From Synechococcus sp. LTW-R (GTDB lineage Bacteria; Cyanobacteriota; Cyanobacteriia; PCC-6307; Cyanobiaceae): a DNA stretch of 64,000 nucleotides. A program made the translations under genes and the position numbers. The number at the start of each line of letters is the position of its first letter. The first letter of the stretch is position 1. The notes below the pieces were generated by a model. It saw nothing but the letters and a program-made list of their open reading frames with translations, made no database searches and was not told the DNA's origin. The stretch is taken from the NCBI RefSeq assembly GCF_014217875.1, contig NZ_CP059060.1:372001-436000 (forward strand). The letters run 5' to 3'. Below are positions 10,724 to 14,455 of this stretch, piece after piece.

Positions 10724-11294
10724 GGCGGCGGCGGACTGCGTATTCAGATCCAGTCACCCTAAGGTCTGGCCTGAGAAATGGGCGCTTCAGGCTTTCTCGC
10801 GCAACCATTGCTCGCAGCACAACCAGCGGGTCCAGCCAGCGGTTCTTGAGCTTGACCCCCCAATGCAGGTGCGGACCGCTGCTGCGGCCGCTGACGCCAA
10901 TGGCGCCCAGGGGCTGCCCGGTTTTCACGCGGGAGCCTCGCCGCAGCTCCACCGCTCCACTGCGTAGCAGGCCGTCCTCGACGCTGCCCTGCAGATGGCA
11001 ATAGAGGTGCTCGTAGCTTCCCGAGCGGATCGCTAGGCCGATTCCGCAGCTCTCGTCATCGATCAGCCGCTCCACGCGGCCGCCCCACCAACTCAGCACG
11101 GGGGACCCCAGGGGCGCAGCAATGTCCAGGCCCCGATGGGGACTCGAGTCATTCGCCCGCCAGCCGAAATGGCTGGTGTAGCCGCTGAACTGCGGCACCG
11201 GGAACCGGGCGAGGCGCCAGGGATTGGCCTGAACCGGAGCCGCCAGGAGCAGGGCTGCGGCCAGTAGGGCCGGTTTAGAGCAGCCCGATGGCAT
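10683..11294 (-). CDS. M23-family (LytM) metallopeptidase, exported
   Basis: A signal peptide ([20 protein letters not shown], then VQA) leads into an M23 domain with [20 protein letters not shown], supplying the HxxxD zinc ligands, and [12 protein letters not shown], supplying HxH. All expected zinc ligands are present, so it should be an active peptidoglycan endopeptidase or an envelope amidase activator. I start at ATG 11294 because it gives a clean signal peptide; an in-frame TTG at 11324 would extend further into hemH. It overlaps the hemH stop by 20 bases and runs 41 bases into ilvB, and the very basic last 25 residues are probably non-functional run-on. Confidence 0.85.
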
Positions 11295-12450
11295 GAAGCG
11301 GGCCGCGTCCGCTGAGGATTTCAAGGAGGAAAGCGGAGAAGCCGAGCATGGCCAAGCGACCGTTCCAGACCTCAGAGCTGTTGTTCCAGCCCCAGGCCCA
11401 CTTGTCCTGGGGATAGAGCTTGACCTTGGTGGGTAGAGCGGCGGCTTGATCGAGGTTGACCTCGGGTCCTTCTAGGGCGTGTTGGACGAGGTTGGCGAGG
11501 CCATTGATAAAGGAGGGAGTGGTGTCGAGTGCGGGTACGCGTCGGAAGTTGGTGATGCCGGCTTCCGTTGCGATCTCGCGGTACTCGATATCGATTTCCT
11601 CGAGGGTTTCGATGTGCTCGCTGACGAAGCTGATGGGGACGACGACGAGGTCTTTGACGCCGGATTCACCGAGCTCATTGAGGGCGTCATCGGTGTAGGG
11701 CTTGAGCCATTCCACCGGACCCACACGGCTCTGGTAGGCCAGGGTGAAGGGATTGGAGTGGCCGAGATCGCTGGCCAGCTTGTCCATGATCAGCTGGGCG
11801 CAGGTTTCGATCTCCTTTTGATAGGGATCACCGGCTTCCTCGACGTAGCTCTTGGGGACGCCGTGGGCGGAGAAGAAGACGTGGGCGTCAGCGGGGTTGG
11901 GGCAAGCCTGGATTTCTTTGCCGATCAGTTCGGCCATGGCCCCGATGTAGCCGGGGTCGTTGTAGTAGCTGCGGATGCAGCGGATGGGGAGCTTGGAGAA
12001 GGAGGGATCGCCCTGGCGGAGGCGTTGCAGTTCGCGGAAGCTGGAGCCGCTGGTGCTGATGGAGAAGTGGGGATAGAGCGGGAGGACCACCACCTCATCG
12101 ATGCCGTCGGCCTTGATGTCGGCGACGGCGGATTCAGTGAAGGGGTGCCAGTAGCGCATGGCCACGTAGCTGGTGGCCTCAATGCCGCGTTGGCGCAGGG
12201 TGCTCTGCAGTTCCCGTGCCTGCTGCTCGGTGATGCGGCGCAGGGGTGAACCACCGCCGATGGAGCGATAGGCGGCCTGTGATTTGCCGGCGCGCAGGCT
12301 GCTGATGAGCCAGGCGAGGGGTTTTTGGAGTGCCGGGTTGGGGAGCCGGATGATCTCCGGGTCAGCGAAGAGGTTGTAGAGGAAGGGGCCGACGTCCTGA
12401 ATGCGCTCAGGGCCGCCGAGGTTCAGCAACACCACGCCGACCTTGGCCAT
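11275..12450 (-). CDS. hemH: Ferrochelatase with C-terminal chlorophyll a/b-binding (HLIP-like) segment
   Basis: The enzyme inserts Fe2+ into protoporphyrin IX in the last step of haem synthesis. It starts [20 protein letters not shown] and contains [19 protein letters not shown] (active-site His) and [17 protein letters not shown] (Glu pair). After a linker, the last 45 residues contain [20 protein letters not shown], the ExxNxR chlorophyll-binding helix seen in high-light-inducible proteins; this fusion is standard for cyanobacterial and plastid ferrochelatases. ATG at 12450 gives the usual 391 residues; an upstream in-frame ATG lies at 12462. It heads a minus-strand cluster with the M23 peptidase and ilvB, and is divergent from the recombinase gene. 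Confidence 0.96.
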
Positions 12451-12704
12451 GCCCCGCTTCATCGGACAACAACAGCGGCGAGCGTAACGCTGCCGGCTTG
12501 GGCCTGGTCGCTCCGGCCCAGGCTCGATAGGGTCGGCCGGACCGCTTCGGTGACGAGATCAGCCTCGAACAGCTCGATCTGGCCCTTCGCGAACACAACG
12601 CGCTGCTGGCGGGCAGCGGTGTCTCGCTGCGGCTGGAACGGCGCGGTTCTCGGCTGGGCCTGAGGGGCCCCCTGCCCTGCCGCATTGGTGGACCGTCCCA
12701 GCGG

Positions 12705-13751
12705 GTGCAACGGATCAGCCTCGGCCTGGAGGCCGACATGGCGGGGCTGGAGCAGGCCCGCGCCCAGTTGAAGCAGGTGCTGCAGGAGCTCCAGCACCAA
12801 CGCTTCCGTTGGCAGGACTGGGGGCCAAGCTCCAAACCGAGCGAAGACCACTCGGCTCGGTTGACCCCTGCCCTCACGACGTCGATTGGGACCCGGCTGG
12901 AGCGCTTTGAGGAGGCCTTCTTCAAGGACCCGCGCCGCCGCCGCAACCCATCGGGTGCTCGGACCACCTGGAGCAGCGCCTATCAGCCTTATTTAAGACG
13001 CCTCCAGGGCCTGGCCCAGGACCAGGCCCTGGATTGGGGATTCCCCCTGCTGGAGGCCGTTCTCGAGAGCTATCCCCTGGCGTCGCGGGGGCGACAGCAA
13101 TGCGGCACTACCTTGGCGGCCCTCGCCCGATCGGAAGGCCTGGCCTTGCCTTCCGACTGGAGTGAGCGGGCCGCAGGCTATGGCCTCCATGCCGCCCAGT
13201 TCCGTCAACTCCCCAGTGATCAGCAGATCCTGGACTGGCTGGAGCGCATTCCCAATCCCGGTTGGCGCTTGGCCTATGGCTTGATGGCCACCTACGGCCT
13301 GCGCAACCACGAGGTGTTCTTCACCGATCTATCCGCCCTGGCCCCTGGGGGCGATCGGGTAATCCGCGTGTTGCCGACGAGCAAAACAGGCGAGCACCAG
13401 GTCTGGCCCTTCCAGCCGCAGTGGGTGGAGCGCTTCGGCCTGGAGCAACTCGGATCCCAGCGTCAGTTGCTCCCGGCGGTCTGCACGGATCTGAGGCGCA
13501 CCACCCTGCAGCAGGTGGGACGGCGGGTGGCGGAGCAGTTTCGGCGCTACGACCTTCCCTTAACCCCCTATGACCTGCGCCATGCCTGGGCGGTCCGCAC
13601 CATCCACATCGGCCTGCCCGACACCGTGGCGGCGCGAATGATGGGGCACTCGGTGGCGATCCATACCCGCACCTATCACCACTGGATTACACGGCGGGAC
13701 CAACAGCAGGCGGTCGACAACGCCCTGGCCCGCCATCAGGCGACGGCCTGA
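12705..13751 (+). CDS. Orphan tyrosine recombinase/phage-integrase-family protein
   Basis: The C-terminal catalytic domain has YGLRNHEVFFTDLS (box I Arg), LPTSKTGEH (beta-hairpin Lys), PYDLRHAWAVR (box II, with Tyr replacing the usual first His), RMMGHS and TRTYHHW (nucleophile Tyr). A SAM-like helical domain precedes it. GTG at 12705 is the first usual start codon, but protein-like sequence continues upstream in the same frame to 12531 (for example [16 protein letters not shown] and VSLRLERRGSRLGLRGP). No phage genes, att sites or cargo are nearby. From memory, similar genes sit between hemH and cobO in related picocyanobacteria, which suggests a resident chromosomal protein, not an active element. 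Confidence 0.8.
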   Translation: MQRISLGLEADMAGLEQARAQLKQVLQELQHQRFRWQDWGPSSKPSEDHSARLTPALTTSIGTRLERFEEAFFKDPRRRRNPSGARTTWSSAYQPYLRRLQGLAQDQALDWGFPLLEAVLESYPLASRGRQQCGTTLAALARSEGLALPSDWSERAAGYGLHAAQFRQLPSDQQILDWLERIPNPGWRLAYGLMATYGLRNHEVFFTDLSALAPGGDRVIRVLPTSKTGEHQVWPFQPQWVERFGLEQLGSQRQLLPAVCTDLRRTTLQQVGRRVAEQFRRYDLPLTPYDLRHAWAVRTIHIGLPDTVAARMMGHSVAIHTRTYHHWITRRDQQQAVDNALARHQATA

Positions 13752-13777
13752 CCTTGGCAGATTGGAAGGACACCCGC

Positions 13778-14455
13778 ATGGCCGCTGTGTCTGATCCCAA
13801 CGCCCTCGACCAGACGGCCTCGGAGCTCGGGATGGGCGGCGATCTGGCCCCTGAAGCCAGCGCCGACGCCTACCAACGGCGCATGGCCCGTCGCAAGGAG
13901 GTGCAGCAGCAACGGGTTGGCGAGCGCTCCTTAGAGAAGGGCTTGGTGCTCGTCTTCACGGGCGATGGCAAGGGCAAGACCACGGCGGCTTTGGGGTTGG
14001 TGCTGCGGACCTTGGGCCATGGGGAACAGGTGGCCGTGGTTCAGTTCATCAAGGGGGGCTGGCATCCCGGCGAAGCCAAGGCCCTGGAGGCCTTTGGAGA
14101 ATCCCTGCATTGGCATGCCCTCGGTGAGGGGTTCACCTGGGAAACCCAGGACCGCGAACGGGATCGTGCCTTGGTGCAGGAGGCCTGGAAGCGCTCCTGC
14201 TCCTACCTCGCTGATCCCACTCGGAAATTGGTGGTGCTCGATGAGGTGAACGTGGCCCTGAAATTGGGCTACCTCGACGTGGAGGATCTGCTGGAGGGAC
14301 TCAAGCTGAGGCCTCCGCTGACCCATGTGGCCTTGACCGGCCGCGGCGCTCCGCCGGCCTTGATTGAGCGGGCTGACCTAGTCACGGAGATGAAGCTCGT
14401 ACGCCATCCCTTCCGCGAGCAGGGGGTGAAAGCCCAGGCCGGGATCGAGTTCTAG
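13778..14455 (+). CDS. cobO: Cob(I)yrinic acid a,c-diamide adenosyltransferase
   Basis: CobO/BtuR transfers the adenosyl group of ATP to cob(I)alamin precursors in B12 synthesis. The P-loop GLVLVFTGDGKGKTTAALGL, the motif VVQFIKGGWHPGE and VVLDEVNVALKLGYLD are diagnostic. I chose ATG at 13778, with GAAGGA seven bases upstream; an in-frame TTG at 13754, two bases after the recombinase stop, is the alternative. The N-terminal 40 residues are a charged extension before the ATPase core. With cobK at 35.8 kb this indicates corrinoid synthesis. The 3' end shares a CTAG with the stop codon of a convergent small gene. Confidence 0.94.
   Translation: MAAVSDPNALDQTASELGMGGDLAPEASADAYQRRMARRKEVQQQRVGERSLEKGLVLVFTGDGKGKTTAALGLVLRTLGHGEQVAVVQFIKGGWHPGEAKALEAFGESLHWHALGEGFTWETQDRERDRALVQEAWKRSCSYLADPTRKLVVLDEVNVALKLGYLDVEDLLEGLKLRPPLTHVALTGRGAPPALIERADLVTEMKLVRHPFREQGVKAQAGIEF

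Follow-up and report, generated by a model that had tools for sequence, protein, structure and literature searches.

The gene int, which lies on the + strand between hemH and cobO in the window (the whole stretch of 64,000 nucleotides of Synechococcus sp. LTW-R DNA that was analysed), is almost certainly a core, domesticated chromosomal recombinase. It is probable (roughly 0.62) that its product is an FtsK-independent former integrase which resolves chromosome dimers at a 27-bp palindromic site, with one-sided arm repeats as its control. A broader proposal is offered tentatively, at slightly less than even odds: picocyanobacteria may resolve dimers by an unrecognised system comprising an arm-binding integrase encoded beside hemH, a dif-like terminus site, helically phased one-sided TGGAC repeats in place of FtsK, and expression throttled by AUC or CUG start codons in several lineages. 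For cyanobacterial dimer resolution, the analysis puts forward a gene, a precisely defined site and accessory repeats, all testable in cultured strains, and the organisms concerned are ecologically weighty. If true, this would be a case of a phage-type integrase with arms recruited as a housekeeping enzyme, and of an AUC start codon that bacteria have retained across species.

The features of the int locus, in window coordinates, are as follows.

11275..12462, − strand: divergent neighbour, taken to be hemH from its sequence and from the initial annotation; divergent to int in 37 of 38 loci of the family and in 5 of 8 from other cyanobacteria
12528..12533, + strand: presumed −10-like box TAGGGT, named by general promoter rules; TANNNT in relatives; overlaps the in-frame stop
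12540..12557, + strand: short hypervariable leader; 12 of its 18 columns are variable in the six relatives
12558..13751, + strand: int, domesticated tyrosine recombinase gene; 397 codons from the proposed AUC start (open frame, PF00589, family matches)
12558..12560, + strand: proposed AUC start codon; ATC in six of six relatives, with constraint beginning there
12564..12794, + strand: modelled N-terminal α-β-β-β-α domain, possibly arm-DNA-binding-like (AlphaFold2 models; weak to borderline Arm-DNA-bind_2)
12870..13133, + strand: core-binding helical domain (modelled helices 114-201, within the range aligned to XerA, XerH, Tn1549 Int and lambda Int)
13215..13745, + strand: catalytic domain with R258, K285, Y347, R350, H373 and nucleophile Y382 (PF00589, alignment, structure match)
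13754..14455, + strand: cobO, directly downstream of int in 38 of 38 family loci; start codon provisional

Reading frame and start codon of int

The + strand frame 12531-13751 is open for 406 codons after the TAG stop at 12528-12530 and, as the initial annotation had observed, contains no ATG, GTG or TTG upstream of GTG 12705. These codons are also missing between the −10-like box and codon 31 in all six relatives used for the start analysis (the window, L133, L006, L007, L134 and L135). Among the six, the ATC at 12558, 24 nt after the box, is invariant while the codon preceding it varies (GAG, AAG or CTG), and only 5 of 21 columns vary in 12558-12578, as compared to the 12 of 18 in the leader. 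Over 12558-12704, 24 of the 49 codons vary synonymously only and 14 non-synonymously in the int frame, against 2 and 36-37, respectively, in the two other frames. This synonymous excess, confined to the int frame, indicates that the stretch is protein-coding, and bears out the coding signal reported upstream of GTG 12705. The absence of a standard start in the six relatives, together with the sharp onset of constraint at ATC 12558, makes an AUC start the best reading, and the comparison renders it very likely that int is translated from there.

Translation from CTG 12579 or GTG 12705 instead of ATC 12558 is an unlikely alternative to which some observations lend weight, as CTG 12579 is likewise invariant in the six relatives and the start of genus g35 looks like a CTG. 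In the seven g35 loci, the first invariant codon is CTG, preceded by ten codons that all vary non-synonymously; constraint right after it is still loose, making a weaker case than that of ATC 12558. Against CTG 12579 stands the constraint already present in codons 12558-12578, while a start at GTG 12705 would cost the N-terminal domain, which is confidently modelled and conserved in relatives with standard starts, its first helix and two strands. The AUC start therefore remains preferred. Among the explanations first put forward for the upstream signal, a non-standard start is supported, with ATC 12558 chosen over CTG 12579. Frameshift entry from the out-of-frame GTG 12550 was discarded, that codon being missing in L006 and L007, and N-terminal trimming in this strain is contradicted by an arrangement common to six species and by an N-terminal region conserved family-wide. 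Homologues beginning at the equivalent of GTG 12705 and lacking upstream similarity had been named as a possible counter-example; the alignment shows the conserved N-terminal region instead.

Start codons vary elsewhere. No standard start lies between the box and the conserved Asn23 in L048, L123, L124 and L126 (genus g30) or in L129 and L132 (genus g6); other g6 loci have a possible GTG or TTG start near codon 19, and many other int loci have an ATG at codon 13. This diversity across g35, g30, g6 and other lineages suggests that the start shifts between lineages and that near-cognate codons recur. Start codons were read directly from the sequences; counts from an automatic classification were set aside, since it included starts lying within the conserved part and placed some −10 boxes wrongly. 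In L020, an in-frame tandem repeat (AGNGF) precedes the conserved N-terminus, and it is shorter and altered in the sister locus L021.

Most of the GC-rich relatives have, as read by eye, a TANNNT box in the equivalent position, usually after CGA or GG. A transcript start at about 12540 is predicted from the sequence, in which case the in-frame stop would be part of the promoter. Between hemH and int, the stretch GAGCGTAACGCTG at window positions 12479-12491 is conserved in most relatives and is probably part of the hemH promoter.

Domain organization and catalytic residues

Int matches Pfam PF00589 (E 2.7e-6; 27.7 bits against a cut-off of 27.1). The roles of its catalytic residues are taken from the tyrosine recombinase superfamily, to which it belongs by its PF00589 fold and by its catalytic Arg, Lys, Arg, His and nucleophilic Tyr, with codons beginning at 13302 (R258), 13383 (K285), 13578 (R350), 13647 (H373) and 13674 (Y382). 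The Pfam match and the located residues thereby confirm the catalytic domain initially described. Also as described, Tyr347 replaces the first His of box II (PYDLRHAW), and R258, K285, Y347, R350, H351, H373 and Y382 are invariant in 30 aligned orthologues. The motif PY.LRHAW recurs in eight orthologues outside the family, and Tyr occupies the box-II His position in two other recombinases of the window's genome. As judged by these alignments, the Tyr-for-His replacement is a family trait and not a mark of damage.

The AlphaFold2 model of Int has a mean pLDDT of 80.4. Residues 12-88, modelled alone, reach a mean of 92.7 and form a helix, three strands and a helix; downstream of this N-terminal domain, the model displays core-binding helices and then the catalytic domain. 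In the PDB, the model is matched best by XerA structures (Z 12.8, rmsd 10.1, 233 aligned), and it also aligns with XerH (Z 11.0, rmsd 6.5, 250 aligned) and Tn1549 Int (Z 10.5, rmsd 5.9, 230 aligned).

Arm-DNA-bind_2 (PF12167) was detected at E ≤ 0.1 in 4 of 30 members, the best at 8e-4, and four of five N-terminal segments from outside the family score 18.0-22.0 bits against a cut-off of 22, with L119 at 22.0. The window's own N-terminal segment alone gave no Arm-DNA-bind_2 match. One fold search with the N-terminal domain returned no E below 0.5; in a second, Z did not exceed 4.5 and the matches listed included no integrase. The assignment of this domain as arm-DNA-binding-like is borderline, and is to be taken as a good guess from the models and not as a result.

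Conservation and gene context

The profile table places an int match at E ≤ 0.001 in 190 of 201 family genomes and in 130 of the 131 good ones, i.e. those with completeness of 90% or more and contamination of 5% or less. By our own reading of the table, strong matches (E < 1e-100) are present in 184 of 201 family genomes and in 128 of 131 good ones, so that the gene is no orphan, as it had first been called. The three good genomes devoid of a strong int are G025 and G049, which have weak matches, and G087, which has none.

The order hemH(−) int(+) cobO(+) was scored in family loci of at least 12 kb and agrees with the place initially described for the gene; no mobile-element gene was seen among its immediate neighbours. 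In L067 (G008, genus g9), cobO follows int, hemH is absent within 12 kb and int is more diverged. Outside the family, ten genomes match the int profile at E < 1e-120, and eight of these loci, fetched for comparison, provided the counts for hemH given above.

Among 22 single-contig genomes, int is the sole PF00589 match in six, its identity being established by coordinates in G010, G031, G095 and G152 and inferred from the single strong match in G065 and G110. The window's genome has 13 PF00589 matches, i.e. 12 besides int. Five PF00589 matches other than int cluster in one 64-kb stretch of this genome, G000:C1:1273573-1337384, perhaps a genomic island.

A 27-bp palindrome in single copy

Conserved runs outside ORFs were sought by comparing 200 kb of G009 with its counterpart in G092, which revealed a single perfect 9-bp dyad, GCGTACCTG-TGTCTATAG-CAGGTACGC, at G009 313879 and G092 304815. 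Alignment of the 150 bp to the left of the dyad is no better than that of shuffles, while that of the 150 bp to the right beats all 100 shuffles, which fits the conserved repeats found there. The candidate site is a 27-bp palindrome, GCGTAyCTG-N9-CAGrTACGC, with about one copy per genome. A scan that left two arm positions free and tolerated one mismatch recovered it in 42 of 56 family genomes, 40 of them with a single copy, and in 2 of 24 cyanobacteria outside the family; the reversed-pattern control matched 3 of 80 genomes. The search for a dif site proposed at the outset thus yielded a dif-like candidate, although the consensus is missing at this stringency in 14 of the 56. The two other matches, in G394 with int and G227 without it, amount to 1 of 10 int-bearing and 1 of 14 int-lacking genomes outside the family, about the chance level. 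The one-mismatch site of G394 (C35:21477-21503) has well-matched outer arms and is either chance or a true copy. In the window's genome, the site lies outside the window at G000:C1:612612-612638, and a second match, at 2044990, has a mismatch. An exact scan of GTDB genomes gave, among the 80 loci listed, 66 that are cyanobacterial by title and 14 that are not. At up to three mismatches, 149 of 200 genomes match, with a noisy control.

The distribution of the site has gaps. None of the 24 genomes of genus g17 has it at up to three mismatches, few g56 genomes have it, and the consensus was not found in G008 or G164. Weight-matrix scans of 180 and 220 kb around the skew switch of G095 and G117 detected no site, and relaxed dyads, a weight matrix and TGGAC repeats uncovered none in g17. 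Int is also less similar in the clades that lack the consensus, namely g17, most of g56, and g9. Among the six genomes in which int is the sole PF00589 match, G010, G065 and G031 have the site and G095, G152 and G110 do not. G025 (95% complete) and G049 (94%) have neither a strong int nor the site, a weak observation given their completeness. G087, scanned only at three mismatches, gave 3 matches and 1 in the control. A first terminus candidate, at G095 844862, was set aside: its 23-bp core occurs in 8 of 9 g17 genomes and in 0 of 111 others searched, and it lies in an apparent divergent promoter block. In G474 (genus g45), 17 matches at up to three mismatches were recorded with 0 in the control, one of them at up to one mismatch and the best copy at C1:2592039; these may be a repeat family, or else elements that carry mimics of the site.

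Site anatomy and TGGAC repeats

Flank-identity thinning and edge limits reduced 123 sites at up to one mismatch to 103, 102 or 96. Across 103 loci with dissimilar flanks, the core holds 1.45 bits of information per position, compared with 0.03 and 0.12 for the flanks, and T and A are favoured immediately outside the arms. The arm pair 6/22 is complementary in 78 of 96 sites (C-G 49, T-A 21, A-T 8) as compared to a mean of 42.9 and a maximum of 58 in shuffles, which overstate the significance of this covariation given the kinship of the sites. The inner pairs 10/18 to 13/15 exhibit no covariation beyond shuffles. This pattern suggests that one protein would bind both arms, with the centre giving polarity. 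With its 11-bp arms, the layout is that of the single-copy palindromes of Xer/dif systems, apart from a centre of 5 instead of 6 bp. Sites fall inside ORFs in 65 of 123 cases, against 81% of random positions, by a crude ORF call.

Of 96 sites, 68 have the word TGGAC at a distance of 45-60 bp on one side of the core, and 2 have it on each side. The first copy lies at 51-53 bp in 66 sites, and additional copies are mostly 11 or 23 bp further out. Controls gave 57 of 1920 random positions and 0 of 14 non-cyanobacterial site matches. As read from this spacing, the layout is that of a core plus arm sites on one helix face. In the AT-rich genomes of L225, L226, L228, L231, L232 and L392, AGTCT/AGACT words at short steps were seen by eye opposite the TGGAC side.

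Terminus position

Sampled AT skew places the terminus of G009 between about 0.23 and 0.35 Mb, with the sign flipping at about 320-330 kb; in the sister genomes G009 and G092, the sign change lies about 5-20 kb from the site. In ten further genomes, skew in the 20 kb either side of the site is small, with no clear flip. Among 28 single-contig genomes, the distance from int to the site, as a share of the chromosome, is 18-23% on the upstream side in 12, 17% on that side in G023, and 7-16% on the opposite side in 15, which include the window's clade. The skew switch of G095, where the site was not found, is 22% from int on the same side as in the 12 genomes, whose int-to-site distance equals this int-to-skew-switch distance. 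About 22 kb of G009 (C1:274471-296393), ending in an apparent tRNA gene, is missing at the same place in G092.

XerC/D and FtsK searches

The XerC/XerD model NF001399 gives Int 14.8 bits, against a curated cut-off of 279 bits. None of 65 cyanobacteria exceeds this cut-off, a strict one that only 5 of 14 control genomes pass, and 8 of the 11 family genomes in the set have no match even at E 1e-20. The genome search for XerC/XerD suggested initially is therefore negative above the cut-off, while weaker, sub-threshold matches are present in 42 of the 65. FtsK_gamma was detected in 0 of 30 cyanobacteria, and the FtsK_SpoIIIE motor in 0 of 19 int-bearing genomes as against 3 of 6 int-lacking ones; each search was positive in 8 of 14 named control genomes. 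An FtsK with a gamma domain, as in FtsK-activated XerCD, is thus absent from the matches in the genomes searched.

Proposed mechanism and alternative explanations

From these observations we infer a mechanism in which a former integrase would have settled beside hemH before the family arose and become a housekeeping recombinase. The leader of its mRNA would be very short, and the AUC start at 12558 proposed for this subclade may keep the amount of Int low. Int alone would bind both 11-bp arms of the single 27-bp palindrome near the replication terminus, cut with Tyr382, exchange strands and convert chromosome dimers to monomers. Its N-terminal arm-binding-like domain may contact the TGGAC repeats, the first of which starts some 51 bp beyond one edge of the site, with further copies one or two helical turns outward, and this one-sided arm would supply the control given by FtsK elsewhere. 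That Int acts at the palindrome is likely. Confidence in the site and dimer readings is tempered by the strictness of the XerC/D cut-off in controls, and by two outside matches that cannot be called defective. The cellular role suggested by the initial annotation for a domesticated chromosomal recombinase is supported, with dimer resolution as its best candidate.

It is hardly credible that int is the remnant of a prophage or other mobile element: its fold is integrase-like and its viral fold matches are integrases, but the locus is fixed, with conserved chromosomal neighbours and no linked element or att site seen, and the catalytic residues are invariant in 30 of 30 orthologues. The relatives known from phages (30% identity over 42%), plasmids (29-31% over 83-84%) and viral contigs (27%) are all distant, and the gene is kept in the smallest complete genomes searched. 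A stronger challenge to the proposed pairing is that Int is a core recombinase engaged in, for example, DNA inversion, while the palindrome belongs to another recombinase or to a terminus-organising factor. The pairing is indirect, g17 genomes carry int and lack the consensus site, and any of the 12 other PF00589 matches of the window's genome, or the sub-threshold XerC/D-model matches, could own the site; this reading is nonetheless rather improbable, since G010, G031 and G065 have the site with int as their only PF00589 match, and G025 and G049 lack both a strong int match and the site. Very unlikely, finally, is a conserved transcription terminator or other hairpin. The palindrome is an inverted repeat, and 21 of 54 sites with clear neighbours lie between convergent genes by a crude gene call, but its occurrence about once per genome, the conservation of base identity and not of pairing alone, the shuffle-like complementarity of its inner pairs and the one-sided TGGAC repeats at a fixed distance all argue against this reading.

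Comparison with known systems

The site sequences of XerS, XerH and XerL have no known relation to the cyanobacterial palindrome. As outlined in passages of PMC5357621 (XerS/difSL, XerH/difH) and PMC9765430 (XerL/dif), these systems also use one recombinase at one atypical chromosomal site; they differ from the present case, in which the int-bearing cyanobacteria tested have no FtsK-family match. XerS is closer to phage recombinases than to XerC, according to part of PMC8987985, so that recruitment of a mobile-element recombinase for dimer resolution is known in principle. Archaeal XerA/dif, as described in passages of PMC2958812 and PMC5357621, likewise has a single FtsK-independent recombinase and one palindromic terminus-region site with 11-bp arms. 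Int has an extra arm-binding-like N-terminal domain as compared to XerA, and the cyanobacterial site differs from archaeal dif in sequence, in a centre of 5 instead of 6 bp and in its TGGAC repeats; the same passages report a 13-bp conserved flank on one side of some archaeal dif sites.

For cyanobacteria, the relevant passages of a large 2011 dif survey predict none in the 5 species tried (PMC3025954), those of a 2019 genome paper predict none in its species or other cyanobacteria (PMC6416890), and xerC is called rare in the phylum in part of PMC5101192. Titles and abstract openings of open-licence PMC articles, weak evidence of absence, contained no report of a cyanobacterial dif site or of the int start codon. 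The idea that some Xer-lacking cyanobacteria use a class-specific recombinase has been published for the 'Cyan' simple tyrosine recombinases (passages of PMC8138268), a subgroup which, compared by description only, is named for Oscillatoriophycideae and comprises recombinases without an arm-binding domain.

The ColE1 cer site with XerCD also combines a core site with accessory DNA that controls dimer resolution; cer employs ArgR and PepA over about 180 bp, as outlined in part of PMC5357621, whereas short repeats, perhaps bound by the recombinase's own domain, would serve here. Lambda Int and Tn916/Tn1549 Int resemble Int in having a small N-terminal domain before the core-binding and catalytic domains, and a core site with distant repeats. 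Int differs from them in its fixed locus with no mobile element seen, its one chromosomal site and its one-sided repeats.
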